DNA of 64,000 nt from Psychroflexus sp. ALD_RP9. Its GTDB lineage: Bacteria > Bacteroidota > Bacteroidia > Flavobacteriales > Flavobacteriaceae. Positions 15,801-30,169 of this stretch are shown piece after piece. The translations under genes were made by a program, and so were the position numbers. How positions within the stretch are numbered: the first letter of the stretch is position 1; each line of letters begins with the position of its first letter. The DNA lies in the NCBI RefSeq assembly GCF_017311165.1, contig NZ_CP062973.1, positions 1,364,001-1,428,000 of the forward strand, read 5' to 3'. The notes beneath the pieces were generated by a model, which saw nothing but the letters and a program-made list of their open reading frames with translations, did no database searches and was not told the origin of the DNA.

Positions 15801-16325
15801 ATGCCATTTAAAGATCAACAACCAAGAAAACGAATAGAATACCGTGGTGAAAATATACGTGTTTCTAGAACTAGTGGTGTATCTGCCACTAAAACGATTT
15901 CTAAAGACGGTTATGGGGCTACCATAAATACCAATCATGGCCTAAGATTTCATAAACGTTTATTTAAAGGTGCTAGGATAGGTTTACAAAATGGTAACTT
16001 TCAATTTATTGGGAGATATAAAAGTGGGCCATTTAATTTTAATGTGTCTAAATCAGGCGTTAGTACCTCGATAAAAAACAAAAGAGGTTCCTACAATCTA
16101 CTTAAACCAAACTATTCTAGTTTTAAAATGGGTGGCGTTCAAGTTAGAGGTAAAAATGCCGCTACTTTACAGCTTATATTTATGTTTTTTCAGCTGGCAT
16201 TGGGTTTAATACAGCTTATTTGGCATATAACCATCAACTTGTTGTGGTTAAGTTTTTTAGGGATTAAATGGCTGTTTGATTTTAGTGTAGGGTTTTATAA
16301 AGGGTTTAACTCAAAAGCTAATTAA
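15801..16325 (+). CDS. Hypothetical protein with DUF4236-like strand region and C-terminal membrane segment
   Basis: 174-residue protein starting at ATG 15801. The open frame continues upstream into the tRNA, which rules out the longer version. The first half is rich in Gly, Arg and Lys with short beta-strand repeats (FKGARIGLQNGNFQFIGRY, GPFNFNVSKSGVSTSIKN), faintly like DUF4236 proteins. The second half has one or two long hydrophobic helices (about residues 116-165). A tail-anchored or peripheral membrane protein is likely. Function unknown. Confidence 0.7.
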   Translation: MPFKDQQPRKRIEYRGENIRVSRTSGVSATKTISKDGYGATINTNHGLRFHKRLFKGARIGLQNGNFQFIGRYKSGPFNFNVSKSGVSTSIKNKRGSYNLLKPNYSSFKMGGVQVRGKNAATLQLIFMFFQLALGLIQLIWHITINLLWLSFLGIKWLFDFSVGFYKGFNSKAN

Positions 16326-16433
16326 CTTTTAAGGTTTGACTTATGTTTGATGAGTCAAGTTTGATTTTTTAACGATATAGCAGATTAACTAGGCGTAGTA
16401 AGGTTAAAAATATTTACTTATATTTAATGTGAT

Positions 16434-16709
16434 ATGAAAACAACACCAAACATAAATTCTTTCTTTCCTTTATTGGCTCTAAGTCTTCTGCTTATTCCCT
16501 TTGTGGCCATGCAACTAACACCAGAAGTCAATTGGTCTATTTTAGATTTTATAGTTATGGGCGCTTTACTATTAAGCTTTAGTTATGGTGTATTTTTTAT
16601 TATACAATTTGCAAAGCGCAAGTGGTTGAAGTATGGCTTAATATTTTTGTTATTTGTTATGCTACTTCTAGTTTGGGTAGAATTAGCAGTGGGATTATTT
16701 AGTGTATAA
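16434..16709 (+). CDS. Small three-helix membrane protein
   Basis: 91 residues, with three hydrophobic helices (about 10-27, 36-58 and 66-89) separated by short polar loops (EVNWSI and KRKWLKYG). No named family recognised and no catalytic residue stands out. It is a single gene with about 100 bases free on its left; the neighbour on its right is convergent. Confidence 0.65.
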   Translation: MKTTPNINSFFPLLALSLLLIPFVAMQLTPEVNWSILDFIVMGALLLSFSYGVFFIIQFAKRKWLKYGLIFLLFVMLLLVWVELAVGLFSV

Positions 16710-16734
16710 TTTGGGTGTTTTATATAAAGCAGTA

Positions 16735-17337
16735 TTAGTTGGTTGTCTTGGTTTTTTTAGGTCTATAGAATAAGGTCACCAAAAGTAATAAGGCTAAAAA
16801 TATTAAAATATAAACTTCCATCTTAGTATATAAATCAACTGAAGCGATGGCTTTTTTACCGATAAATAATTGTCGGCGGCCTTCTTCTAACTGAATTTTA
16901 GATAAACTGTGTAAGTTAGTTTCGAGTGTATTAATTTTTATTTGTAAATCTTTGTAAGATTTAGGTGCTTGACCTAACTTGTTTTCTAAGCGGTAAAGTT
17001 GTTCTAAATTCTGCTCTAAATCATTAAGTGTAGTTGCTTCAACAGGAACGAGCTTTGTGGTCTTAAATTTTTCAAGTAGCTGATTTATTTCTGTATTAAT
17101 TTCTTTATTTCTTTGGTTATAAAAAGCATCGTTTTGTTCTAAAATCGCGAGTTCTTTTTCTTGAAGTAACAAGTTAATTTCAAAAATAATATCGTTGACT
17201 ACTAAACGATCTTGATAGATGCTGTTGATGCTTTCTTGTAGCTTTTCAAAATTATGGCGGTCTACAAAATTAGTGGCAATAATTACTAACATCATAAACA
17301 GAAGTGCGCCAGCCCATTTTAGTTTTGTTAATTTCAT
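16735..17337 (-). CDS. Four-helix-bundle sensory-domain-like membrane protein
   Basis: 200-residue protein with membrane helices at both ends (about 9-24 and 172-190) and a long helical, Glu/Lys/Gln-rich extracytoplasmic region between. This is the layout of the 4HB ligand-binding module of chemoreceptors and histidine kinases, but no signalling domain follows: after the second helix only YRPKKTKTTN remains. It may be a stand-alone sensor or partner protein. In flavobacteria, which lack classical chemotaxis, such proteins are uncharacterised. Confidence 0.65.
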   Translation of the reverse strand: MKLTKLKWAGALLFMMLVIIATNFVDRHNFEKLQESINSIYQDRLVVNDIIFEINLLLQEKELAILEQNDAFYNQRNKEINTEINQLLEKFKTTKLVPVEATTLNDLEQNLEQLYRLENKLGQAPKSYKDLQIKINTLETNLHSLSKIQLEEGRRQLFIGKKAIASVDLYTKMEVYILIFLALLLLVTLFYRPKKTKTTN

Positions 17338-17550
17338 ACAATCACTCTTAATTTAATTGAAATATACTAAAAAATGTAGATTTAAACTTGGCTTTTTTTG
17401 ACTTTAATAACGCAGGCTGATTTTTTAGTTATTTGTTGTGCTGTTAAGCTGTTTTATTTTTAACATACTTTCAGATATTTAGGACGGTAATAAGCTTTGC
17501 TTGGTGTTGTTTTAATCGGTATTTCGGTTAAGGCTAAACCCTTAGTTAAC

Positions 17551-17605
17551 CCTAAGTATCCCCCAAGTATCCCCCAAGTATCCCCTAAGTATCTCCCTAG
17601 TATCT
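17551..17605. repeat. 11-bp tandem repeat in a gene-free stretch
   Basis: Five consecutive 11-base units of the form CCYAAGTATCC (consensus from positions 17551, 17562, 17573, 17584, 17595), with decay in the last units. Partial traces follow to about 17612. The unit equals about one helical turn, so any bound protein would see the copies on one face. It lies within the 443-base gene-free stretch 17338-17780, between a divergent membrane-protein gene and the ABA4-like gene. Nothing else coding was seen in that stretch. Confidence 0.85.
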
Positions 17606-17780
17606 CTTTAGTGAGCTGCTTCAACTGATGTCTAAATTAAAGTGAAATTTTAGTTCGTTTGCTGTTCTTTTAGTCGTATTTAATTCACCTTGTAGATTTT
17701 GCCTCATAGTTTCCATAGGCTTTAAATAGAGCCATTGGGTTTTACTTGTTTTTATTGTAACTTCAACCAAAAAAATAATC

Positions 17781-18221
17781 ATGACAGCAGCTTTTGTTTT
17801 TCAGTTGGTTAATGCCTTAGTTTTGCCCGCTTGGTTAAGTTTAGTGTTTTTTCCGAAAAAGAAATGGCGACAATTGGTGGTTTATACGATTGCTTTGCTC
17901 ATGGCTTTGGTTTATGCGGTTTATGTGGTATCAGGTTTAGGGCAATTTAATCCTGAAGCCTTTTCTACTTTAGCAGGGATTAAGGCTTTATTTGCGACTG
18001 ATCAAGCGGTGTTAGCTGGCTGGATTCATTATTTAGTTTTTGATTTATTAGTAGGTAATTGGCTATTACAACAATCGCAAAAACACGGTATTTCGCATGC
18101 TTTCATGGTACCATGTTTATTGCTATGCTTTATGTTTGGTCCTGTGGGTTTTATAGCTTACAGCTTGGTGCGTTTAGCTTATAAAATTACTTCAAAGCCT
18201 TCAACCGAAGCTCAACAATAA
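17781..18221 (+). CDS. ABA4-like family membrane protein
   Basis: 146-residue protein of the ABA4-like (DUF4281) family with four hydrophobic segments. The characteristic first helix is followed by LPAWLSLVFFPKKKW. The central GWIHYLVFDLLVGNWLL contains the conserved His/Asp pair of the family, and LLCFMFGPVGFIAYSL follows. Plant ABA4 is needed for neoxanthin formation; bacterial members are uncharacterised. It is followed 15 bases later by a membrane-anchored protein gene, probably cotranscribed. Confidence 0.85.
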   Translation: MTAAFVFQLVNALVLPAWLSLVFFPKKKWRQLVVYTIALLMALVYAVYVVSGLGQFNPEAFSTLAGIKALFATDQAVLAGWIHYLVFDLLVGNWLLQQSQKHGISHAFMVPCLLLCFMFGPVGFIAYSLVRLAYKITSKPSTEAQQ

Positions 18222-18236
18222 CTAAACTACATCAAT

Positions 18237-18947
18237 ATGCTTCACACTTTTTTTAGTCGTTTATTAAAGGTCTTAGCCGCTATCTTGGGCTTATTGCTTA
18301 TTGGCTTTGTGGTGTTAAAATTAGTTTATAATTCGCCTGTACCTTCTGGAGAAAGCGGTCCAGCTGCCGACGACTTGGCACAGCAAATGTTAGATGCCAT
18401 GCATCATGAGGCTTTTTCTGAAGCCAAAGAAATTCATTGGGTGTTTCGCGATACCAATCATTACAAATGGTATTTACAAAAACATCAGGTGTTGGTATCT
18501 TGGGAAGATTATCAGGTTTTACTACAAACCAAAACACCTGAGCAAAGTAGCGCATATCACCAAGAAGTTGTATTAACGGGTAAAGCGAAAGACAAAGCGA
18601 TTGCTTACGCTGTAAAAAATTTTAATAACGACAGTTTTTGGTTGGTTGCGCCATATAAAGTTTTTGATCCTGGCACTAAGCGGGAGTTGGTTAAAGAGGC
18701 TGGCCAACAACAACTTTTAGTGACTTATACTTCTGGAGGAAGCACACCTGGCGACAGCTACCTTTGGCAATTAAATGATCAAAACCTACCTATTGCAATG
18801 AAGATGTGGGTGAGTATTATTCCCTTTGATGGTTTAGAAGCCCAATGGCTTAACTGGCAAATGACCAGTGGTGGTTTTCTTTTGCCTGAGCAACGACAAA
18901 TCATGGGCGTTAACATTCCTGTGAGCAAGGTAAAGGTTGTGCCTTAA
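18237..18947 (+). CDS. Membrane-anchored hypothetical protein
   Basis: 236 residues: an N-terminal membrane helix (about 9-29) followed by a soluble domain predicted outside the cytoplasm. The soluble part is rich in aromatic residues (EIHWVFRDTNHYKWYLQKHQVLVSWEDYQ in outline) and ends in alternating strands. It resembles unnamed Bacteroidota proteins that I cannot assign. It is close behind the ABA4-like gene. A 170-base gap then separates it from the accessory island, where base composition becomes more AT-rich. Confidence 0.65.
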   Translation: MLHTFFSRLLKVLAAILGLLLIGFVVLKLVYNSPVPSGESGPAADDLAQQMLDAMHHEAFSEAKEIHWVFRDTNHYKWYLQKHQVLVSWEDYQVLLQTKTPEQSSAYHQEVVLTGKAKDKAIAYAVKNFNNDSFWLVAPYKVFDPGTKRELVKEAGQQQLLVTYTSGGSTPGDSYLWQLNDQNLPIAMKMWVSIIPFDGLEAQWLNWQMTSGGFLLPEQRQIMGVNIPVSKVKVVP

Positions 18948-19116
18948 AGCTTTATGGTTTTACTAACCGTAAAATTAAAGGCAACATCAGTTAAGGATAA
19001 CCACCTCAGGACTTACTGATAGGCCTAAATATTGCCCAACTGAACGAGAAGTTCTAAAAAAATTTGATGGTTAAAATTATATTCGTTAGTTTTAAATTAA
19101 ACTTACAAACCAATTC

Positions 19117-20157
19117 ATGAGCCAACTTCCCTTTTCACCTCATATTAATAATAATGCTTTAGCCAGCATTTTTAATAATACTTCTGCCACCTATAAATTT
19201 TATTGGTTTTTAGGAATTATTGAAGAAGTTGAACAAGGAAGACGTGAAATTGAGAAAAAAAGAATTTTTTCGAGAATGATAGCAAATGCCTGGTATCCTA
19301 TTAACTATTTTAAGATATCGTTTGGCACTCAAGATAAAATTGCTGAAATCATAGAATATCTTGTTACAACCACTAATCTTGTAGAGAATGAAGACAAATC
19401 AAAAATATATAATTTCCTGACTGAATCACTTGATAAGGAAGTCATTAAATATTTATTTCATCTGGATAAAAACGTACCACATTGGTTTTTGAGTCCATGG
19501 TTTAAAGGGCATAAAAAAACTGAAATTTATAGACAATCCTTAGCGAGTAATGATTATGCTATGTATAGGCTTGAAAAAAATACAATTACTGTTAATGAAA
19601 ATTGGTTAACCTATATTTTATCAAATGCAAAAATATTAAAAGAGTATACACTATGGAATCTAGCACTATTTGTACAAAGTAAAAACCCATTAATACCAGA
19701 TGTTGTAAATAAATTAATTAAACCAGCAAAACGAAATTCACTGACGTACCAAAGAAATAATTTTTGGAATATATATCTTAATGAAAAAAGAGATGTTAGG
19801 TGTATTTTTACTGGTGAGCAACTCGATGAATCAAATTATGAGTTAGATCATTTTGTGCCATACTCATGGGTGTCACACGACTTGATTTGGAACTTAGTTC
19901 CTGTTTTATCAGGGTTTAATAGTTCTAAAAATAATAAACTTCCTATTCTTGAAAAGCATTTTAATAGCTTTTACAATATTCAAAAAGATGCCTTAAATTT
20001 AATTGATAAGAGATTGAAAAAAAGATTTCGAGATGAATATATTACTATATTTAAATCTTATCAAACACCTGAAGATTTTAAATACCAAAAATTAATGGAT
20101 ACTCTAGAGCCACAAATTTCGGCTGCAAGCAATAATGGCTTCGAGTTTCTAGAATAA
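19117..20157 (+). CDS. HNH endonuclease domain protein
   Basis: 346-residue protein with a C-terminal HNH nuclease module at about residues 228-290. CIFTGEQL is the first strand, the first catalytic His is in ELDHFVPYSW, Asn is in DLIWNLVPVLSG, and the last element is FNSSKNNKLP. The 220-residue N-terminal part is helical and not recognised. It lies four bases before a methyltransferase-HIT gene and faces a helicase-nuclease operon, a typical defence-island setting. It is probably a DNA nuclease acting with its partner; the target is unknown. Confidence 0.8.
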   Translation: MSQLPFSPHINNNALASIFNNTSATYKFYWFLGIIEEVEQGRREIEKKRIFSRMIANAWYPINYFKISFGTQDKIAEIIEYLVTTTNLVENEDKSKIYNFLTESLDKEVIKYLFHLDKNVPHWFLSPWFKGHKKTEIYRQSLASNDYAMYRLEKNTITVNENWLTYILSNAKILKEYTLWNLALFVQSKNPLIPDVVNKLIKPAKRNSLTYQRNNFWNIYLNEKRDVRCIFTGEQLDESNYELDHFVPYSWVSHDLIWNLVPVLSGFNSSKNNKLPILEKHFNSFYNIQKDALNLIDKRLKKRFRDEYITIFKSYQTPEDFKYQKLMDTLEPQISAASNNGFEFLE

Positions 20158-20161
20158 AATC

Positions 20162-21022
20162 ATGGCCAACCAAAAGACTAACTCACATTTCACCGCTAAA
20201 GAAAGAGAAAAAATATCTTTCCCTACACGTATTTTGCTTAATGAAAATTTAATTGATGGCAAAACATTAGACTTTGGCTGTGGGCACGGAAAAGATGTTG
20301 AAGAGTTAAAAGCAAAAGGTTTTGAAATTGAAGGTTATGATCCGTATTACCAGCCTGATTATCCAAATCAAAAATTTGATACGATTTTATGCCATTACGT
20401 ATTGAATGTTTTACAAAACCAAGACCAAGCAAAAGTTTTATATGAAGTTTCTAACTTACTAAAATTTGGAGGGAAAGCCTATTTTAGTGTACGTCGAGAC
20501 ATCAATAACCCTGGTTTTAGAACTCATTTTGTACATAAAGTAAAAACGTTTCAAACCAATGTCATTCTTCCGTTTAAAACAGTTTTCATTAATGAAAATG
20601 TAGAAATTTACGAATACCAACACTATTGTTTTCTAAACCAAAATCAACCAGAAGTCAGTCCGTTTTTTGAAAAACTAGAACCCAAAGAGCAAGTGGGCGA
20701 ATTAGCGAGTTGCTTTGCTTTTCGGGATAAGTTTCCAGTTACAAAAGGGCACACTTTAGTGATTCCCAAGCGACAAGTTGCTAATTACTTCGATTTAAAT
20801 TTTAAAGAACAATCGGCCTGTTGGTTTTTAGTCAACTTAATTAAAGCCGACTTGCAAAAACAGTTCAGTCCTGATGGTTTTAACATCGGCATCAACATCA
20901 ACGAAGCCGCTGGACAAACTATTTTTCATTGCCACATCCACATTATTCCCAGATATAATAACGATGTTGAAAATCCGCGTGGAGGCGTTCGTGGGGTTAT
21001 TGATGGAAAGAAGGAGTATTGA
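20162..21022 (+). CDS. Bifunctional SAM-dependent methyltransferase / HIT family protein
   Basis: 286-residue fusion. The N-terminal half (about 1-160) has the class I methyltransferase motif LDFGCGHGKD (SAM-binding loop) and the acidic end of the next strand, GYDPYY. The C-terminal half (about 170-286) is a HIT hydrolase domain with the histidine triad HCHIHIIPR and an upstream KGHTLVIPKRQ strand. HIT proteins hydrolyse or transfer nucleotide phosphates. The same two-domain fusion is known in other bacteria. It forms an operon with the HNH gene; one base separates its stop from that of the convergent 660-residue protein gene. Confidence 0.88.
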   Translation: MANQKTNSHFTAKEREKISFPTRILLNENLIDGKTLDFGCGHGKDVEELKAKGFEIEGYDPYYQPDYPNQKFDTILCHYVLNVLQNQDQAKVLYEVSNLLKFGGKAYFSVRRDINNPGFRTHFVHKVKTFQTNVILPFKTVFINENVEIYEYQHYCFLNQNQPEVSPFFEKLEPKEQVGELASCFAFRDKFPVTKGHTLVIPKRQVANYFDLNFKEQSACWFLVNLIKADLQKQFSPDGFNIGININEAAGQTIFHCHIHIIPRYNNDVENPRGGVRGVIDGKKEY

Positions 21023-21023
21023 T

Positions 21024-23006
21024 TTAAATCATTTTAATCCATTCTCTAAGATATTTTATTGGAAACGGTAAAACTGTCAAATCTCCATTTTTAACAAAAT
21101 CAACATTCATAAGAGGAAGTAATTTATCAAAAAGGTATTGTGAATTTTTAAAAGTATCAATTTTTCTAATCACCGATGCTCTCGAAATAGTTTGTTGAAT
21201 TCCTTTTCCTTTTATACCAACAAAATAAAAGTGACTTTTATTTTGTCGGAATGAGTGAATATCTAACTGACTGTCTAATAATTCATATCTGGATTTATCT
21301 CTTAAATATGATTTTAATACTTCTCCTGTTTCTTGTTTAACTTTTTCGACAAAGGTTTTTTTGTCATTTCTGTTTTTGAAGCAGTGTAGTAGATTTTTTT
21401 TATTCCAAATTTCAATTTGATTTATTTTGCTTTTTAACCCTTGCGCTTTTTCTGTTTCAAATACTTCACCTATTAATTTTAATACTAAATCTTTAGTGAT
21501 ATTAATTTTGGCAGTTTCTTTCGTCAATATATCGTTTATTAATTCAAACTCTGGAATTGTGAAGTTATTAGTTCGCTTTATTATATTAATATTCCCAATA
21601 TCATCCTTAACAATAAATTCGGTATAGTTATCATTACCAAAAGCATCACACAACTCATCATATTCATTTTGATTAAATAAATCTGATTCGAATTTTTCAA
21701 AATAAAATTTACCATCCGGTTTAACTGTTAAGTAGTAGAATTCTTCATTATGTTTTATTCCAAAAATCCATTTGTTAGTGTAATTAAACTTAGACCAATC
21801 AATTATTGAAATTTTATTGTTGCTAATATCATTTTTAATTGCTAATTCTTTAATAATTGCTTTGAGACTTGCTTTTGAGTTCAGTTTGAAATCTTCAAAA
21901 GTTATATGTTGGATATTATTGGAAGGTTTATAAGGGTCATTCTGTTCATATTTTTGATAAAAACGTTTATTGTGAATTAGCTTAACACTATAACTCGTAT
22001 TGTTTTCTTTTTTAGCAATTTTTGTTTTTGAATTTGGAACAAGGCTCTCAATTTCTTGTTTGATGAAATCAAGATGTTCGTTTGAGCTTTCATCTTTGAT
22101 TCCATCAATTAGAAAAATACTTTCATTTAATTTACTATAATCAAAAGTATTTAAATGGCGAACAACATTGTTTGCTTTAACTTCTTTAAATTTAAAACTT
22201 AAATACTTTGAGAGTTTCTCGTTTATGTTGTCTAAAACATCTGATAATATTCCTATTTTACTGTCTTTAAATTCGTTTAAGTTGCTAAAATCTAAAAATG
22301 GAATATTACTTTTCTCTAAAGTTCCTTTTTTTGAAGTTTGTTTTAGGATGAATAGATTATCTGCTTTAACTTTCTCGGTAGATAAAACCCGTCTAAGTGT
22401 GTTGGTGGAATGAACAAATGTATATTTTGGGTATTCTTTGAGTTTCTTTTTCGAAAACTCCATTTGCTTACTTAATAAAACACTTGAAAATGTTTTTACA
22501 TTTAGTTGTAAACAACAATTTGGATCAATATAAAAATCTAACCCTACAATTTTAAAAATTTGTTCTTTTTCTTTTGACTTACTAATTTTTAAATGGCTTG
22601 GACTGAATAAATAAAGCTTACCTGTCAGGTTGTTAAATGTTAGTCTTTTATGATTTGGTGTAGCAATTGAGTTAATTATTAACTGGGCTAGTGTATGTGT
22701 ATCTAATTGTTCAAGTTCTTTTGCATTTAAAAACTTAAATGAAAACTTATCACCATCTTCAATTTTTTCAAGTTGTTTAGATATATCTAAGTTTGTAATA
22801 TACTTTTTGTCAAATAGTGCGTAAAATGATTTGCCTCTTTCAAAAATGATACTTTTTGTTTTTAATTTAAACCCAATCTCATCAAGCACTAATGCACCAT
22901 ATTTTATATAATCCTCAGAAGCAGAAAACTTAACAACTGTATAGTCCAACAACAATTGCTGGAAGTTCAACTGTATATCTAACTGGTTTGTTTTACAAGT
23001 TTGCAT
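21024..23006 (-). CDS. DdmE-like partner of helicase-nuclease (candidate inactive Argonaute)
   Basis: 660 residues, no domain identified with certainty. It follows a DdmD-like helicase-nuclease and overlaps it by 14 bases. In Vibrio cholerae the partner in this position is DdmE, a DNA-guided, catalytically dead Argonaute of similar size. Suggestive features: residues 245-345 could be a MID domain (a strand-helix pattern, with IKQEIESLVPNSKTKI resembling the guide-end pocket helix). Residues 376-450 (LKAIIKELAIKND, then WIFGIKHNEEFYYLTVKPDG) look like the start of an RNase H/PIWI fold. There the first catalytic Asp position reads Lys (GIK). No DEDX set was found. All of this is inference; an unrelated accessory protein remains possible. 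Confidence 0.5.
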   Translation of the reverse strand: MQTCKTNQLDIQLNFQQLLLDYTVVKFSASEDYIKYGALVLDEIGFKLKTKSIIFERGKSFYALFDKKYITNLDISKQLEKIEDGDKFSFKFLNAKELEQLDTHTLAQLIINSIATPNHKRLTFNNLTGKLYLFSPSHLKISKSKEKEQIFKIVGLDFYIDPNCCLQLNVKTFSSVLLSKQMEFSKKKLKEYPKYTFVHSTNTLRRVLSTEKVKADNLFILKQTSKKGTLEKSNIPFLDFSNLNEFKDSKIGILSDVLDNINEKLSKYLSFKFKEVKANNVVRHLNTFDYSKLNESIFLIDGIKDESSNEHLDFIKQEIESLVPNSKTKIAKKENNTSYSVKLIHNKRFYQKYEQNDPYKPSNNIQHITFEDFKLNSKASLKAIIKELAIKNDISNNKISIIDWSKFNYTNKWIFGIKHNEEFYYLTVKPDGKFYFEKFESDLFNQNEYDELCDAFGNDNYTEFIVKDDIGNINIIKRTNNFTIPEFELINDILTKETAKINITKDLVLKLIGEVFETEKAQGLKSKINQIEIWNKKNLLHCFKNRNDKKTFVEKVKQETGEVLKSYLRDKSRYELLDSQLDIHSFRQNKSHFYFVGIKGKGIQQTISRASVIRKIDTFKNSQYLFDKLLPLMNVDFVKNGDLTVLPFPIKYLREWIKMI

Positions 23007-26000
23007 AAATGTTTATCTCTTTTAAAATTGAGTGGTTTAATTCCTTTGTTTGTGTATTCCATAAAAACGGAACTTCAATAATTTTTCCGTCAGTAGATTT
23101 TACTGTTTGCCATTCATTGGCAGAGAGAATATTAACTATAAACACTTTATCGCCTTGCACTTTTTCTAACTTCTTTCTGATTTTAGACTCTTGATTTTCA
23201 AAACCGATTTCTGTTGTTTCTTTCCAGTGTTTGAAATCTACATAAATGTTAGAGTCTTTTATTTTATAATCAAAAATCTCGTATTTCTCAATTGATAATT
23301 CTTCAAGTTGAATACCGAAATGATTTTTGAAAATGAATTCACCTATTTGCTCTCCTAAAGTTCCTTTGTAAATATTATTGAACATAACAGGTGTAATAAT
23401 ATACTTATTGGTTTTGAACGATTTTGCCCATTTCTTTTTGTCAAAAAGGTCATTTACTCCGTCTATTTCTAAAAGTTCATTTAGCCTTGCAGTTTCAAAA
23501 GAAATTTCACTTCCGCTATTAGATTTGAAATCAACAATAATATTTTTAAAATCGTTGAAGTATTCAGATTCTTTAAGTTCGAAATGGTATTTATTTGATG
23601 CTTTTGGTAATTCAATATATAAATCCAAAATTCGATTCAAATTCAAGGTATTTATTTCTTCTTCCGATATAGTTGGAAAACGTAAACACATTTCTCTTAG
23701 CTTTTCCCATTCTTTTACTCGTTTTTCGTTCCAACCCCATTCTTCATTTGATATAAATTTTTGAATTATAGAATGAACTTTTTTATTAGTTGCAGTGGCA
23801 AGATTTTTAAATTTTGAATCTGTTTGCTGTTGGATTTTGATTTGTTGTTTACTTGAATTAACCAAAGCTTTAAATTCATTCAATACTAAATTATTTTCTG
23901 TATCAAAATCGCAAATTAACCTATCTAACTCTTTATCTGCATAGATGTAGATACTTAGTGCCTTTAAATTAGTTCTACATATTCTTCCAATGGCTTGGAT
24001 TATATATTTAGCGTAGTGTTGTTTTATATTGTCGTCTTGATAAAGATTAACTTTTGGTTTGCCTAAATCTTCTTTGGTATTAAAAGAAGCTAATAAATGT
24101 TTAAATGCTCTAGTAACTTCTGTGTTTAATTGATTTATGGAAATTATACCAGCTTGTGTTAAAAATTCTAATTGAAAAAGGTATTTAATAAAGCCTTCTT
24201 CATTTAAATCTTTATTAACTTGCTGTATAATATGTGTTGGTTTGTCTAAATAAATAGCGTTAATATCAGTCTTTCCTTTAGTATTCCAATTAATTAGTTT
24301 TTTACTTCTAACATTTATCAGATCTTTAGGATTTTGTGCTATAAACTGTAAATTTTGACCAGCTCCCATTGTTTGATACATAGAGATTATAAATACTTTT
24401 TTTCCTTTTTCAAGTCGTTTTATTAAGTCTTGTTTTTTGTTATCAAAGTCATTACTGTTTATAACTGTGTAAGCATTTTTAATCTTGAATTTATCATTAA
24501 TTTTGAATTCGTCAACAAGATTGTTTTCTTCAACTAGCATTTCAAATATCTCTTTCAAAATAGCTAAGTCAAGAGTTTTATCGTTCCATTTAGGTTCTTT
24601 GTTTAATAAGCAGAGAAAGCCTTTAATGTCATCTTGAAGTAGAAACTGCTTAAATGCATAGGAAATCTTATAATATCGATTAAGTAAGTAACCGTTAATT
24701 TTGTGATTTTTAGCTTTAATTTTTCCTAAAATTTCATTTGCTAGCTCTTTACTATTAAGTAAATTGTAAAAATCATTTTGATATTTTTCAAACTCAACAT
24801 CATTTGGTTTTAGATAGCCTAACCATTCAGTATGAATTTTTGCTTTATAATAGTATTTATTTTGCTCGTTAAATAAATCCGTTAGAATTTTATTTTCTTC
24901 ACTATTTAATTCTATAAATTTTGAACCTAATTGTCTTTTAAGATAAGTTATGTCATAATTACCCGTAACTGTCTTAACTAAAGCAGTTGCTGAAATCCCA
25001 ATAACCTTAGATTTCTCAGCAAGTTTTAATAAAAATTTTTCAGGGGTATTTTGAAAACTATAAATGAATGTTTTCGTTTTAGATTGATGAGAATCGTCAT
25101 CTACAAAATCATAATACCTAAAACCATTTTCGTAAACGCTCAAATCATAATTAAGTTCGGTTTTTCCGTTTTTGTTTTTTGTTGGTTTTTCTCTCGAACT
25201 TAAAATATTATCAATTAAAAAGTTTTTGTATTTGATATCTAACCCAAACTCCTCAATAACTGTACTTAATGCTAAATCAAACGTAAATTCAGCTCTTTTT
25301 GGGTTGCTTTCTCTCTCTTGTGTTTCAAGTTGCTGATAATTTTCTGCAATACTTTTTAACACTCCACTAAAATAATTTACAAAGCCTTTTATTTGGTTCA
25401 GTAAATGAACCATACTTTCGCCTTTAGGTTTTGTGTTTTCAAAAATTATTTCATTTGTTTTAGATGATTTATTTTTATTAAGACGAATATAACTTTTATT
25501 GTTTCTGTAAACAGAATGGTATTGAAAATCGTGAAACAATAAATTTCTTTGATTTACATTTTCATTTTCATGATTTTGTGTTTTAAAGCTATAATCGAGC
25601 TGATATTTGGTTACAATTTCTTCTGATTTTTTTAATAAGGCTTCTTGTATGTCGTGAAGTGGTAAACCATAATTATTATCAATTAATTTTTGTCTTTTTT
25701 CTGAATGAGTTATAAACTTCTGAGGAAAAATATTTTTAGATAATGCCCAATTGATTTCTGTAAAAAGATGAATGAAATCAATTCGTTGTTTTTTTCCTTT
25801 TTCGATTATATTTTTGAGAATATTGTCTTTTGTAGCATCAAATTCATCTATGAAAATAATTGCATCTTTTGTTAAATCATTTTCCAAGAATGAGTATGAA
25901 GGTTCTACTAACGTACTATTTTTATGGTAGAATTTATCAATGCTTAGAAAGAACACTTTTCTTTTTGATGTGAATACAGCAGGATAAAGTTCTCCAATCC

Positions 26001-26538
26001 ATTTTAGCTCATCATTGGTTTGAATTGCTTTAATTCGTTCTTGTTTATTAGTGAAATTATCTTTTAGATACTTTTCAATTATTCTTCTAAACTTTGGTTC
26101 AAAATCGGTTCTAATTTCATCTTTAAGTTTAGAAACATATACTTTTAATGAATTATTTTTTTCGTTGTTTTTAATTTCAGCAACATTACTTTTTATAGAG
26201 TAAAAAACTTTATGGTTTTTAAAATAGTCGTTTATAGAGTTTTCTACATCTTGAAAACGCTTAACTAAACAGTCAGAGTTTGAGTCTAAAAAAGTAATAT
26301 CTTTTTCAAACTCCTGAAGCTTATTTTTAGGTTTAAAAAAGTCATCTCTCAATTCATCAAAAGGAAGATTCTTTTTAAGATTTGTTACGAAAAATATCTT
26401 TCTATTTTCTTTGCAATAGCTTTTGTAATTTTCAAAAATCCAAGTTAAAACTGTATGAGTTTTTCCAGAGCCAGTAGGTGGGTTAAATAATAATAATCCA
26501 TTTTCTTTGTTACAGTGATTATCCAGGATTTTTTTCAT
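22993..26538 (-). CDS. SF2 helicase with C-terminal PD-(D/E)XK nuclease (DdmD-like)
   Basis: 1181 residues. Helicase motifs in order: Walker A PPTGSGKT (20-27), DEFD box in IIFIDEFDATKD (about 227-238), motif III-type GISATAL (514-520), MYQTMGAGQNLQF (about 720-732), and motif VI QAIGRICR (848-855). The C-terminus carries a PD-(D/E)XK nuclease: Glu in GTLGEQIGE (1059-1067), Asp in IFDYKI (about 1090) and DFK (1101-1103). The combination and length match DdmD, the helicase-nuclease that destroys plasmids in Vibrio cholerae. A stop codon two codons upstream of the ATG fixes the start. It overlaps the 660-residue partner gene. AT-rich coding unlike its neighbours. Confidence 0.82.
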   Translation of the reverse strand: MKKILDNHCNKENGLLLFNPPTGSGKTHTVLTWIFENYKSYCKENRKIFFVTNLKKNLPFDELRDDFFKPKNKLQEFEKDITFLDSNSDCLVKRFQDVENSINDYFKNHKVFYSIKSNVAEIKNNEKNNSLKVYVSKLKDEIRTDFEPKFRRIIEKYLKDNFTNKQERIKAIQTNDELKWIGELYPAVFTSKRKVFFLSIDKFYHKNSTLVEPSYSFLENDLTKDAIIFIDEFDATKDNILKNIIEKGKKQRIDFIHLFTEINWALSKNIFPQKFITHSEKRQKLIDNNYGLPLHDIQEALLKKSEEIVTKYQLDYSFKTQNHENENVNQRNLLFHDFQYHSVYRNNKSYIRLNKNKSSKTNEIIFENTKPKGESMVHLLNQIKGFVNYFSGVLKSIAENYQQLETQERESNPKRAEFTFDLALSTVIEEFGLDIKYKNFLIDNILSSREKPTKNKNGKTELNYDLSVYENGFRYYDFVDDDSHQSKTKTFIYSFQNTPEKFLLKLAEKSKVIGISATALVKTVTGNYDITYLKRQLGSKFIELNSEENKILTDLFNEQNKYYYKAKIHTEWLGYLKPNDVEFEKYQNDFYNLLNSKELANEILGKIKAKNHKINGYLLNRYYKISYAFKQFLLQDDIKGFLCLLNKEPKWNDKTLDLAILKEIFEMLVEENNLVDEFKINDKFKIKNAYTVINSNDFDNKKQDLIKRLEKGKKVFIISMYQTMGAGQNLQFIAQNPKDLINVRSKKLINWNTKGKTDINAIYLDKPTHIIQQVNKDLNEEGFIKYLFQLEFLTQAGIISINQLNTEVTRAFKHLLASFNTKEDLGKPKVNLYQDDNIKQHYAKYIIQAIGRICRTNLKALSIYIYADKELDRLICDFDTENNLVLNEFKALVNSSKQQIKIQQQTDSKFKNLATATNKKVHSIIQKFISNEEWGWNEKRVKEWEKLREMCLRFPTISEEEINTLNLNRILDLYIELPKASNKYHFELKESEYFNDFKNIIVDFKSNSGSEISFETARLNELLEIDGVNDLFDKKKWAKSFKTNKYIITPVMFNNIYKGTLGEQIGEFIFKNHFGIQLEELSIEKYEIFDYKIKDSNIYVDFKHWKETTEIGFENQESKIRKKLEKVQGDKVFIVNILSANEWQTVKSTDGKIIEVPFLWNTQTKELNHSILKEINIYANL

Positions 26539-26633
26539 TCTTTAAACGATTAAATGGTAACTTACGTATCAATTATATATAATTCATTTAAATTATCATA
26601 ATTATAAATTGTTTTTTATTGTTAATAAACAAA

Positions 26634-26641
26634 CAAAAGTA
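26634..26641 (-). promoter_or_regulatory. Possible -7 element of the helicase operon
   Basis: On the minus strand TACTTTTG fits TAnnTTTG. It would give a transcript start near 26628 and an AT-rich leader of about 90 bases before the ATG at 26538. No convincing -33 TTTG was seen, so confidence is low. Confidence 0.4.
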
Positions 26642-26679
26642 TCGCTAATTGTTATTCTGGGCGTTTTTTTACCGTTTAC

Positions 26680-26931
26680 ATGGTAGATGATAATGGAAAT
26701 ACTTGGAAAGAGTTAAGTTATAACGGTTATGGTATTTTTGGAGGCAAAGATTTTTATGAATTATTAGCTGAAATGAATGGTCTAACCAATAGGGAAGATG
26801 GTATTAAACTTTATTTTGATAAGGATGAAAGTAACGTAAAATATCCTAATTTGGTTGAGCACATTGAAAGTTGGCAATGGCAAAACAAAAAACCTGAAAG
26901 ATGTCCATACCAAGGTCACTTTTATGAGTAA
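26680..26931 (+). CDS. Small hypothetical protein, possibly 5'-truncated
   Basis: 83 residues from ATG 26680, soluble and aromatic-rich, with a Gly-Gly turn (GYGIFGGKDFYELL) and a Pro/Cys-containing end (PERCPYQGHFYE). The frame is open for 17 codons further upstream (to 26629) without a start codon, and the in-frame TVY just before the Met continues the strand-like pattern. It may therefore be the tail of a longer gene cut off at the island edge. I recall similar unnamed Bacteroidota proteins but cannot name a family. It is divergent from the helicase gene. Confidence 0.5.
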   Translation: MVDDNGNTWKELSYNGYGIFGGKDFYELLAEMNGLTNREDGIKLYFDKDESNVKYPNLVEHIESWQWQNKKPERCPYQGHFYE

Positions 26932-26939
26932 GCATCAGC

Positions 26940-26971
26940 TAGCTTAAAAACTTATGATAAGTTTTTAGCTA
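26940..26971 (+). terminator. Strong hairpin after the small hypothetical gene
   Basis: An inverted repeat of about 13 bp with one bulged T, based on TAGCT-AAAAACTTA and its complement around a short loop. It begins nine bases after the stop codon at 26931. No clean T run follows, so it may be a weak or rho-assisted terminator. Confidence 0.5.
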
Positions 26972-27376
26972 AATACGCAGTTAACTTTTTTAGTCATAAA
27001 TGTTATCTACATTTCGCTATGCGTATGCATTTTTCTCTATGATGGCAAATTAAGTGGTGTTCACTGTAGTTTTTCTTCACCAAAAGCCGGCGTATTTATG
27101 TTTTAGAGGTTTGGGCGCTGCAATTCCATAATAAGGATTTCAAGCAATATCTTATACAACTTCATTCATATTCATTAACTTTTTTATCTGTTTTGCCCAT
27201 ACTAATACATGTACAAGTTTTGATGTAAGCAATTCTTGTTTTAATGCTAATAAGGTCTAAATTTTAGAAGTATTCTTACTCGATGCTTCAGTAGGGCTTA
27301 AGTATAGCTAATGTATTAAGAGTGTATTAAAACAGGGTTTCAAAAAAGCCTTAATTCTATCAAAATGTAAAATAAA
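26972..27376. other. Gene-free stretch at right edge of the island
   Basis: About 400 bases without a credible ORF on either strand. A GC-richer block near 27080-27140 (around CCGGCGTATTTATG and GGTTTGGGCGCTGCAATTCC) looks unlike its surroundings and resembles intergenic sequence I associate with other flavobacterial genomes, so it may be a dispersed repeat. No insertion-sequence ends or target duplications were recognised. Confidence 0.45.
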
Positions 27377-27407
27377 CTTGACATTGTAAATTTTTGTTGT
27401 ATATTTG
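27377..27407 (+). promoter_or_regulatory. Promoter of membrane protein/XRE pair
   Basis: CTTG (27377-27380), a 19-base spacer, then TATATTTG (27400-27407) closely match the Bacteroidota -33/-7 consensus. The expected start near 27414 leaves a leader of about 37 bases before the ATG at 27451. Confidence 0.75.
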
Positions 27408-27450
27408 TAAAGTTTTATTTACATTTTATCAACTTTAATCTTAACTTAGC

Positions 27451-27840
27451 ATGAAGAATTTAAAACAACAAACCTTAAAATTAGCAGGCTGGACGTGGTC
27501 TTGGGTAGCCACCTTAGCCTTAGCCACTTTTGGTCCCAAATTTATTTGGGACGAGCATTACACGCTAACCACTTTAGCCATTGCCGTAAACTTAATTAAT
27601 GGCGTGATGATGATTATTGCTAACCGCCGTTATTTTAATGCCATGGACGAGCTACAGCGCAAAATACACACAGAAGCCCTAGCCATTACCTTAGGTTTAA
27701 GCGTAATTGTAGGTTTAAGCTTTTCTTTGCTCGACCAAACCAATCTCATTAGCTTTGATGCAGAAATCGGCTTTTTAGTCGGCTTTATCGGCATTACTTA
27801 CATGTTAGCTTTAGCCATTAACCGAAACCGTTATACATGA
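27451..27840 (+). CDS. Four-helix membrane protein paired with an XRE regulator
   Basis: 129 residues with four predicted hydrophobic helices (about 14-31, 40-57, 75-95 and 104-123) and a conserved-looking MDELQRKIHTEALAITLG loop. The pattern is known from membrane proteins that sit directly in front of a small Cro/CI-type regulator in many bacteria. Its stop overlaps the regulator's ATG (ATGA, 27837-27840). The regulator probably controls this small operon and may respond to the state of the membrane protein; this is inferred. Confidence 0.75.
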   Translation: MKNLKQQTLKLAGWTWSWVATLALATFGPKFIWDEHYTLTTLAIAVNLINGVMMIIANRRYFNAMDELQRKIHTEALAITLGLSVIVGLSFSLLDQTNLISFDAEIGFLVGFIGITYMLALAINRNRYT

Positions 27841-28040
27841 AAAACAAACTGAAAGTCTTACGGGCAGAGCACAATTATACACAAGACCAGCTCGCTAAAG
27901 CGGTAGAAGTTTCGCGGCAAACCATTAATGCGATTGAAAAAGGAAAATTTGATCCTAGTTTAGTCTTGGCCATAAAGCTTGCCCGCTTGTTTAAAACTGA
28001 AATTGAAGCGATTTTTATTTATGAAGACCAAGCCAGTTGA
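27837..28040 (+). CDS. XRE-family helix-turn-helix regulator
   Basis: 67-residue single-domain Cro/CI-type DNA-binding protein. The helix-turn-helix is YTQDQLAKAVEVSRQTINAIEKGKFDPS (about residues 14-41), with the usual QxxLA and RQTIxxIE contacts. Translationally coupled to the upstream membrane-protein gene by a four-base overlap. Short Yoz/YobD-like regulators of this type generally act on their own operon. Confidence 0.9.
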   Translation: MKNKLKVLRAEHNYTQDQLAKAVEVSRQTINAIEKGKFDPSLVLAIKLARLFKTEIEAIFIYEDQAS

Positions 28041-28086
28041 AGTGATTAGCCTAGCACTAACCACGAGCATCTTAATCAACTAGTGC

Positions 28087-28956
28087 TTAAGATTGGTGTA
28101 ACTCAGCTTTATAGTCATCAATCTGCTGCTGAAGCTGTTGCGGTAAACTCGGGTTTTTGATATCTGTATAAGTTTGCATCTTTGCTTTAATTATTTGAGC
28201 AACAAGTAAACGCGCATGATGTTTAGAATCTGAAGGAATAATATACCAAGGTGCTTCAGTGGTTGAGGTGGCCGAAATGGCAGCTTCGTAACAGCGAATG
28301 TAATCATCCCATAATTTACGGTCTTTTAAATCTTCTGGCGAAAACTTCCATTGTTTATGAGGCTTGTTTAGGCGTCTGAGTAGTCGGTGTTTTTGTTCTT
28401 CTTTAGAAATGTGCAGAAAAAATTTAAAAATAATACAACCATTTTGGTGGATGCTTTGTTCAAAATGATTAATCTGCTGAAAACGTTGCTCCCAAAAATC
28501 TAGTGTTATATCGCTTAAACTATTAATATGTGGTATGTTTTCATGCAAGACAATTTCGGGTTTCACCCTTGAAATCAAGACGTTTTCATAATGCGAACGG
28601 TTAAATACCGCATATTTACCACGTGCAGGTAAGGCTTTATAGTGTCGCCACAAAAAATCATGCTGAAGCTCTTGGCTTGTGGGTTTTTTAAAGCTATGAG
28701 ACACCACACCACGCACATTAAAATCTTTAAATACCTCTCGTATTAAGCTGTCTTTACCAGAAGTATCCATGCCTTGAATACAGACTAAAACCGAATATTT
28801 GCCATGCGCATAAAGCGTATTTTGCATCTCACCAAGTTGGCGGCGTACTTTCCGCAATTGCTTTTTAAGCGTTTTTTTACGCCTTTGGTGGTCGAGTAAT
28901 GTAGGATATTGGTCTAGCTTAATTTGTGTCGTTGCCATAAATTGATTAAAATTCAT
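28087..28956 (-). CDS. Polyphosphate kinase 2 family protein
   Basis: 289-residue PPK2-type P-loop kinase that uses polyphosphate to phosphorylate nucleotides. The Walker A variant is QGMDTSGKDSLI, followed by the HSFKKPTSQELQHDFLWR segment (polyphosphate and base contacts), the lid region with FNRSHYENVLISRVKPE, and the Walker B-proximal CIIFKFFLHIS. Length and the basic N-terminal helices fit single-domain PPK2. AMP versus NDP preference cannot be told from sequence. It is convergent with the XRE gene. Confidence 0.93.
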   Translation of the reverse strand: MNFNQFMATTQIKLDQYPTLLDHQRRKKTLKKQLRKVRRQLGEMQNTLYAHGKYSVLVCIQGMDTSGKDSLIREVFKDFNVRGVVSHSFKKPTSQELQHDFLWRHYKALPARGKYAVFNRSHYENVLISRVKPEIVLHENIPHINSLSDITLDFWEQRFQQINHFEQSIHQNGCIIFKFFLHISKEEQKHRLLRRLNKPHKQWKFSPEDLKDRKLWDDYIRCYEAAISATSTTEAPWYIIPSDSKHHARLLVAQIIKAKMQTYTDIKNPSLPQQLQQQIDDYKAELHQS

Positions 28957-29362
28957 CTCAATAGTGTTTTAAAGCGCATCAGCAAAATAAACGATTGCAT
29001 AAGTATATCCTAGGTTTGTACTTGGTTTTTTAAAAAAAGTTGTTTTTAAAGCGGCTGAATGATATCTTAATACCTCAGTTTTTTTTTGAAGCTATAAGCC
29101 AGAATATAACTAAGCATAAAATTTGGTTTAGTCTTGATCTTAACCTCTAAAACATGTTCAGTCACTAAAGAATTCAGTAAAGTTAATTTTACCTCATTAA
29201 GCTAAGTCTTCAATTAAGAACACTGGTTTTTCTAAAGAGCCTTTGCAATTTTAACTTCAAAATATATTTATAGTCTACATTTAAATTATTAATTGTTAAC
29301 TATTTGTAAATCAGAAATTAGCAACTGAGTTTCTGGTTTATTTTTAGCTAAAAAATTAGATC
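28957..29362. other. Gene-free stretch upstream of the SPFH lipoprotein
   Basis: 406 bases between divergent genes. No ORF with coding character was seen on either strand, nor any repeat or RNA structure that I could support. It presumably holds the promoters of the PPK2 and SPFH genes, but no clear TAnnTTTG was placed. Confidence 0.5.
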
Positions 29363-30169
29363 ATGAAAACAAAACACATTTTTTTAGTAGCATTTGCAGT
29401 TGTACTAACGAGCAGTTGTGCGGTTATCAGGCCTGGTGAAGTTGGGATTAAACAAAAATTAGGTCAGTTATCTGATGAGGTCAACACTGAAGGAACCGTT
29501 TATTTTAATCCGTTGACTAGCCGTGTAATTAAAGAGTCTACCCAAACTAAAAACATTAAACTCTTTTTAAGCTTACCCAGCAAGGAAGGCTTAAGCGTTA
29601 ATTCTGAAATTTCTATTCTTTATCGTCTAGATGGTAACAAAGTAGCCTCGGTACTTAAAAACTTAGGTCAAGATTATGAGTCGGTTATTACCAGTGTATT
29701 CCGTTCAGCTGCTTCAGATGTTTGTGCTAAATTTTTCGCGAAAGATATGCATTCAGGTATGCGTGCCGTGATAGAAGATGAAATTTTAAATAAGATGAGA
29801 ATTAATCTTGAAAAACAAGCTGATGGAATTGAATTAATAGCGGTACTCATGAAGCAAATACAGTTGCCGCCTGGCTTAGCGAGTTCTATTGAACGTAAAC
29901 TGCAAGCCGAGCAAGATGCCATGCGAATGGAGTTTGTACTGAAGCAAGAAACCTTAGAAGCTCAAAGAAAAATTATTAATGCTAAAGGCGAACGAGATGC
30001 CCAATTAATTATTGCAGAAGGATTAACCAATGGTATTATTCGCATCAAAGCCATTGAAGCTTTTAGAGAATTATCTAAATCTAACAATGCCAAAGTAATT
30101 ATAACCGATGGTAAAACGCCGCTTATGGTTAATGATAATCAAACCGTTACGCCGACTTCAAATAAGTAA
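29363..30169 (+). CDS. SPFH/prohibitin-family lipoprotein
   Basis: 268 residues. The N-terminal signal ends in a lipobox (VLTSSC, Cys about 19), so the protein should be lipid-anchored outside the cytoplasm. That is unusual for prohibitin-like proteins but common in Bacteroidota. The SPFH domain follows (GEVGIKQKLGQ to about residue 180), then a coiled-coil stretch (EQDAMRMEFVLKQETLEAQRKI, AKGERDAQLIIAEG) that in this family drives ring assembly. Function is likely membrane scaffolding. A rho-independent terminator follows directly. Confidence 0.88.
   Translation: MKTKHIFLVAFAVVLTSSCAVIRPGEVGIKQKLGQLSDEVNTEGTVYFNPLTSRVIKESTQTKNIKLFLSLPSKEGLSVNSEISILYRLDGNKVASVLKNLGQDYESVITSVFRSAASDVCAKFFAKDMHSGMRAVIEDEILNKMRINLEKQADGIELIAVLMKQIQLPPGLASSIERKLQAEQDAMRMEFVLKQETLEAQRKIINAKGERDAQLIIAEGLTNGIIRIKAIEAFRELSKSNNAKVIITDGKTPLMVNDNQTVTPTSNK

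Follow-up and report, generated by a model that had tools for sequence, protein, structure and literature searches.

A predicted DdmDE anti-plasmid operon in Psychroflexus and its relatives across Bacteroidota

Layout of the operon and assignment of its two proteins

The window, that is, the whole stretch of DNA analyzed here, comprises 64,000 nucleotides of the Psychroflexus sp. ALD_RP9 chromosome (NZ_CP062973.1, positions 1,364,001 to 1,428,000) and carries on its minus strand two overlapping genes that, judged from their sequences, very probably form an anti-plasmid system of the DdmDE type, belonging to a branch within Bacteroidota. The open reading frame (ORF) call gives both genes an ATG start: ddmD (22993..26538) encodes 1181 residues and ddmE (21024..23006) encodes 660, with an overlap of 14 bases (22993-23006), as an earlier note on this DNA had described. 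The operon leader (26539..26628, minus strand) extends from the ddmD start to the right edge of a block that differs from the congener G414 at the equivalent site. A scan for what we take to be the Bacteroidota-type -7 box returned a single TACTTTTG at 26641, upstream of ddmD, and no promoter claim is built on this match. With 26.4% G+C, ddmDE lies below the window as a whole (33.6%).

The superfamily 2 (SF2) helicase and nuclease motifs quoted in that note are likewise all present in the 1181-residue protein, namely the Walker A motif PPTGSGKT (residues 20-27), IIFIDEFD (227-234, with DEFD at 231-234), GISAT (514-518, with SAT at 516-518) and QAIGRICR (848-855), followed near the C-terminus by a PD-(D/E)XK nuclease with E1063, D1090 and D1101-x-K1103, recognizable in FDYKI and IYVDFKHW. 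DdmD was the sole PADLOC match of this protein (E 1e-51), and Pfam returned helicase signals only, under the family cut-offs. Among solved chains, six sequences altogether matched at E ≤ 0.001. The best was Lactobacillus casei DdmD (2.6e-68, residues 10-1166), followed by five sequences at E of about 2.8e-47 over residues 195-1141, which are labelled 'Helicase/UvrB N-terminal domain-containing protein'. Three of these five are taken to be Vibrio cholerae DdmD because their chains come from the entries of V. cholerae DdmDE complexes (9ezy, 9bgk, 8u3k), and the other two because of their equal score and size. Helicase relatives from another system, an outcome for which the earlier note had allowed, were not encountered, with PADLOC returning DdmD only and the solved matches being L. 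casei DdmD and the five sequences taken as V. cholerae DdmD.

PPTGSGKT, DEFD, SAT, GR..R, E1063, D1090, D1101 and K1103 are invariant in all eight Bacteroidota homologues compared, so these motifs are not due to chance; the key residues are also retained in relatives from Nostoc, Persicobacter and Cetobacterium, and the nuclease residues align with GEQ, FD and DSK of a V. cholerae chain. The protein is thus homologous to solved DdmD helicase-nucleases across most of its length, with helicase and nuclease residues intact, and on these alignments it is assigned as a DdmD.

The 660-residue partner was compared with 177,635 distinct PDB sequences using two profiles, A1, built from six Bacteroidota partners, and A4, in which two distant partners were added to A1. 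Both profiles match solved DdmE chains only, up to E 10; with A4, L. casei DdmE is reached at 8.2e-32 over its full length and V. cholerae DdmE at about 5e-13, and even a single-sequence search with the partner reaches L. casei DdmE at 1.8e-12. Because these sequence profiles match DdmE, the identity of the partner is decided for DdmE despite poor structure models, and by its profile relatives the protein is a DdmE. The earlier reading of the pair as a divergent Bacteroidota DdmDE is therefore borne out by PADLOC, by the solved DdmD matches and by the partner profiles.

Within the partner, residues 231-374 align with L. casei DdmE and residues 232-364 with V. cholerae DdmE, a stretch that we take to be the MID domain of both proteins; in the window protein, the MID domain is placed at about residues 230-370 and the PIWI domain at about 390-660, both with inferred bounds. 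The MID region proposed earlier (245-345) lies inside the stretch aligned to both solved proteins, although the MID label of that stretch is itself our assumption. At the position of K418, all six Bacteroidota DdmE sequences carry K or R, and L. casei DdmE has a Lys there in the alignment, which suggests that the first catalytic Asp is likely replaced by Lys here. Catalytic signatures were missing from the partner, as previously stated: neither Pfam nor PADLOC gave a match up to E 1, and NCBIfam gave two weak matches (0.013 and 0.054). The window DdmE is probably a catalytically inactive partner resembling a long prokaryotic Argonaute (pAgo).

Conservation, possible decay and probable movement of the gene pair

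Related loci were recovered from Polaribacter, Kordia algicida, Nonlabens tegetincola, Draconibacterium aestuarii and three metagenome-assembled genomes (MAGs) assigned to Aquimarina, Algibacter and Bacteroidales. Their DdmD proteins are 65-91% identical to that of the window, the ddmE homologue lies directly downstream of ddmD in all seven, and ddmE is one open frame in five. In a further genome, G566, ddmE again directly follows ddmD (DdmD 49%, DdmE 42%). With G566 included, identity of the DdmE homologues to the window protein spans 42-77%. The ratio of nonsynonymous to synonymous substitution rates (dN/dS) was 0.075-0.089 for ddmD and 0.091-0.130 for ddmE over three pairs per gene, the pairs being interdependent, dS approaching saturation for two of them and no value being obtained from a fourth pair of each gene; these ratios indicate purifying selection on both genes.

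Several observations weigh against the DdmDE assignment or its function. The partner structure models are poor, with mean predicted local distance difference test (pLDDT) values of 45.9 and 53.8. For the full-length model, Foldseek matched V. cholerae DdmE (9bgk_E, 1.2e-11, for a poor model) and nothing else at E ≤ 0.001, and VIA-align ranks DdmE chains first and Argonaute chains next, but the rows to DdmE have root-mean-square deviations of 10-26 Å; the MID-PIWI model gave no Foldseek match at E ≤ 0.001 and no DdmE or Argonaute among its best 50 matches. The structure comparison called for earlier thus met DdmE with the complete protein and not with its MID-PIWI part, both times through poor models. 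In addition, the absence of a PADLOC match for the partner counts against it, whether PADLOC includes a DdmE model being unchecked. Where the window protein has K418, the Nostoc partner has neither K nor R, and the L. intestinalis partner shows a gap. The annotated L. intestinalis DdmD coding sequence lacks the Walker A stretch in the alignment, although by tblastn the similarity already sets in 264 bases upstream of the annotated sequence. Finally, ddmE is split across frames in two of the seven loci (L003:13533-15498 and L007:6966-8953) while their ddmD is open, which may reflect decay of the sensor or an assembly error. These two loci are those of Nonlabens tegetincola (L003) and the Algibacter MAG (L007).

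The split frames bear on the possibility that the window pair is DdmDE by descent and yet inactive on plasmids, being decayed, silent, or aimed at phages or integrative elements. Such a copy would agree with the assignment on identity and differ on function, and it would fit both the two split relatives and the many partly deleted homologues described in the portion of PMC11096173 that was consulted. However, both window genes are open, with the key residues in place and a low dN/dS, and we regard an inactive copy as improbable. By analogy with characterized relatives, the window DdmDE likely removes plasmids actively.

The distribution of DdmDE in Bacteroidota is sparse. Profile A2 matched six of 395 Bacteroidota genomes, of which the window's own was the only one left after filtering; the five matches dropped, all from one genus, were pieces of 58-59 residues (E 2e-5 to 5.2e-4). 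The PADLOC DdmD model likewise matched one of the 395 genomes, again the window's own, and a family-level sample yielded four of 397, namely the same genome, G779 (at the L002 coordinates), G492 (at the L007 coordinates) and G566. Among 60 relatives, the DdmE profile matched only the window's own genome, and it matched none of the 26 other genomes of the genus. Carriage by phages was also considered and dropped, since viral contigs gave 349 pattern matches without a single one encoding a relative, and 50,697 phage records gave 0 matches.

When positions 16000-29500 of the window were compared with the seven related loci (blastn, E ≤ 1e-8), similarity to all seven was limited to a span running from 21016-21037 through 26538-26546, in two pieces for L005; it ends no more than 13 bases from the ends of the two genes, and the window flanks are unmatched. 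In the genomes of L001, L002, L003, L005 and L006, DdmD identity is 90, 76, 91, 65 and 67%, whereas the M50/PDZ protease of the window, used as a chromosomal control, gives 51, 43, 54, 48 and 46%, and a second control, PPK2, gives 54, 58, 54 and 28% and, for the last genome, no match. Furthermore, the DdmD of Draconibacterium, a genus that we take to belong to another order, is 77-78% identical to those of Aquimarina and Algibacter, which are themselves 67-68% identical to that of the window. Because similarity is confined to ddmDE, DdmD exceeds the controls, the Draconibacterium protein shows this affinity and the G+C content is low, we read ddmDE as a horizontally moving two-gene cassette of several Bacteroidota. 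No convincing target-site repeat was found around the block among the AT-rich pairs listed.

The surroundings of the related loci vary. In the Aquimarina MAG (L004:3-11645), ddmDE adjoins genes for a TraG-type conjugation ATPase and a reverse transcriptase, and this copy may therefore ride on an integrative conjugative element. Likely defense genes lie near ddmDE in Kordia algicida (a SIR2-domain gene, L002:15652-17541), Draconibacterium (a large NACHT-type gene, L005:2917-9339) and the Algibacter MAG (a gene with a GmrSD C-terminal domain, L007:2136-3404).

Chromosomal site, neighboring genes and plasmid-borne relatives

Among nine congener stretches, L047 of G414 is the sole one to keep both flanks of the site. 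Its blastn similarity to the window extends on the left to 18962 and over 19038-19095 and resumes on the right from 26629, which delimits a block of the window unlike G414 (19096..26628) holding an HNH nuclease gene, a methyltransferase-HIT fusion gene, ddmE and ddmD. At the equivalent site, G414 carries a different block (L047:1365-12294) with matches to DndC (6.7e-148), PbeC/DndD (7.3e-131), DndE (5e-13) and PbeA (5.2e-280). With ddmDE here and a Dnd/Pbe-type block there, the site has apparently taken up two different defense blocks, and on this one comparison the interval between a 236-residue gene and a small ORF would be a 'hotspot' of exchange. The small ORF (26680-26931, plus strand) is part of the remnant (26629..26931) of an ORF that counts 128 codons in G414; lacking its 5' part in the window, this remnant marks the right junction of the block.

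Both neighbors lie close together on the plus strand. The HNH gene (19117..20157) encodes a Cas9-type HNH_4 domain (Pfam 4.6e-11), and the fusion gene (20162..21022) encodes HIT (4.8e-24) and methyltransferase (7.1e-13) domains and is convergent with ddmE, from which it is separated by 1 base. The methyltransferase part resembles a Dnd-associated family (1.1e-19, under the family cut-off). A four-gene system, in which the products of both neighbors would work with DdmDE, could be suspected, as the four genes fill one block unlike G414 and the two pairs abut; yet the neighbors are on the other strand, and they occur in none of the seven fetched DdmDE stretches (flanks of 3.4-10 kb). Moreover, both are present in G407 (L048:738-2629), and three more congeners have the methyltransferase-HIT gene close to the same marker gene (whole in L051, as end pieces in L049 and L050), all of them genomes without DdmE. 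A joint system is accordingly very unlikely. Present without DdmE in G407 and missing from the seven fetched DdmDE stretches, the two genes are probably a separate pair outside the DdmDE system, possibly a defense or nucleotide-processing operon of its own.

A tblastn search of 72,556 plasmids with DdmD returned five records. Plasmid pn2 of Nostoc sp. UHCC 0926 clearly carries a DdmDE-like pair by sequence, its DdmD being 37% identical over 98% of the query and its partner 31% identical (2e-48), and this partner in turn matches L. casei DdmE at 7.6e-13. On an L. intestinalis plasmid, a ddmE-like partner gene directly follows ddmD, and its product is a probable DdmE (1.1e-10). In L. delbrueckii pLD01, the helicase is in pieces. 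Two further partners were not counted as DdmDE. On Persicobacter psychrovividus pPP11 (L057:4360-10364), a DdmD-like gene overlaps a 761-residue partner gene beside ParA and ParB genes; the comparison of that partner with DdmE by hhalign gave E 0.0092 and a probability of 4% at the C-terminus only, with a best PDB row of 0.62, and it is possibly another partner type. The partner beside a DdmD-like gene on Cetobacterium p6 reached E 0.094.

These plasmid-borne pairs raise the question of how a plasmid bearing DdmDE escapes its own system. A tentative and rather doubtful extension, drawing on the Nostoc and L. intestinalis pairs and on the DdmD-like genes of Persicobacter pPP11 and Cetobacterium p6, would regard DdmDE as mainly a mobile two-gene weapon and less as a fixed guard of the chromosome; it would spread through Bacteroidota as nothing more than its two genes, and plasmids would carry it to expel rival plasmids. 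If true, this would demand some means of sparing the carrier plasmid and would thereby inform how DdmE picks its targets.

Proposed mechanism and comparison with known systems

The computed evidence for the window pair covers both proteins, their motifs, the conserved pairing and order of the genes, purifying selection and horizontal spread. For V. cholerae, the consulted portion of PMC12409362 describes DdmE as an inactive pAgo whose DNA guides locate plasmid DNA, after which DdmD is recruited, its autoinhibited dimer coming apart; once loaded on the non-target strand, DdmD moves along it 5' to 3' and degrades plasmid DNA partly, full degradation being described there as unresolved. By analogy, the probably inactive Argonaute-like DdmE of Psychroflexus would bind a short DNA guide, pair with matching plasmid DNA and recruit DdmD, which would load on the displaced strand; its helicase would translocate along that strand, its PD-(D/E)XK nuclease would cut and the plasmid would be lost. 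Every step, from guide use through recruitment, translocation and cutting to the loss of the plasmid, is transferred here from characterized relatives. To our knowledge, the guides of DdmE have no established source.

With this assignment, Bacteroidota would join the known hosts of a plasmid-elimination system described only recently, and the new homologues allow the guide-binding and DdmD-docking residues to be read. A literature search found no paper naming DdmDE in Bacteroidota, a weak sign of absence given that most subscription papers lay outside its coverage. The relatives on plasmids and the exchangeable site make the case more interesting without making this a new kind of system.

Among known systems, ApsAB of Escherichia coli ST38 also joins a helicase-nuclease to an Argonaute-like partner, ApsB, and removes plasmids (PMC11096173, consulted in part). 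Since ApsA and DdmD belong to one broad family and both kinds of system act on plasmids, the window pair could in principle represent this sister class; but the profile relatives of its partner are DdmE chains, to which ApsB has no sequence similarity according to that part of the paper, and the ApsA motifs lie at 218, 532, 823, 1140 and 1420-1435, compared with 20, 231, 516, 848 and 1090-1103 in the window DdmD, the nuclease residues at 1420-1435 thus contrasting with 1063-1103. Set apart by this published description, through which Aps is known here, an ApsAB-type identity deserves next to no credence.

DdmDE of V. cholerae, encoded on VPI-2, shares with the window pair the same two proteins, the same motif set and a single operon. 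It is more distant by score than L. casei DdmDE, and it has an upstream gene for a protein with helix-turn-helix (HTH) and WYL domains (PMC12409362, in the portion consulted), whereas the window ORFs examined upstream of ddmD (26680-28040) encode no WYL domain. The Nostoc pn2 pair, annotated as hypothetical proteins on a 292-kb cyanobacterial plasmid, has the gene order of the window, with a 1-base overlap.

By sequence, the nearer characterized system is that of L. casei, not that of V. cholerae; the window pair also has a cousin on the Nostoc plasmid. L. casei DdmDE (solved: 9iw3, 9ix4, 9ixm) is the nearest characterized relative of both proteins; it belongs to another phylum and its identity to the window proteins is low (21-24% in VIA-align rows), yet the two systems have in common similar protein sizes and a C-terminal P-x-P-x-K-x-L-R-E ending.

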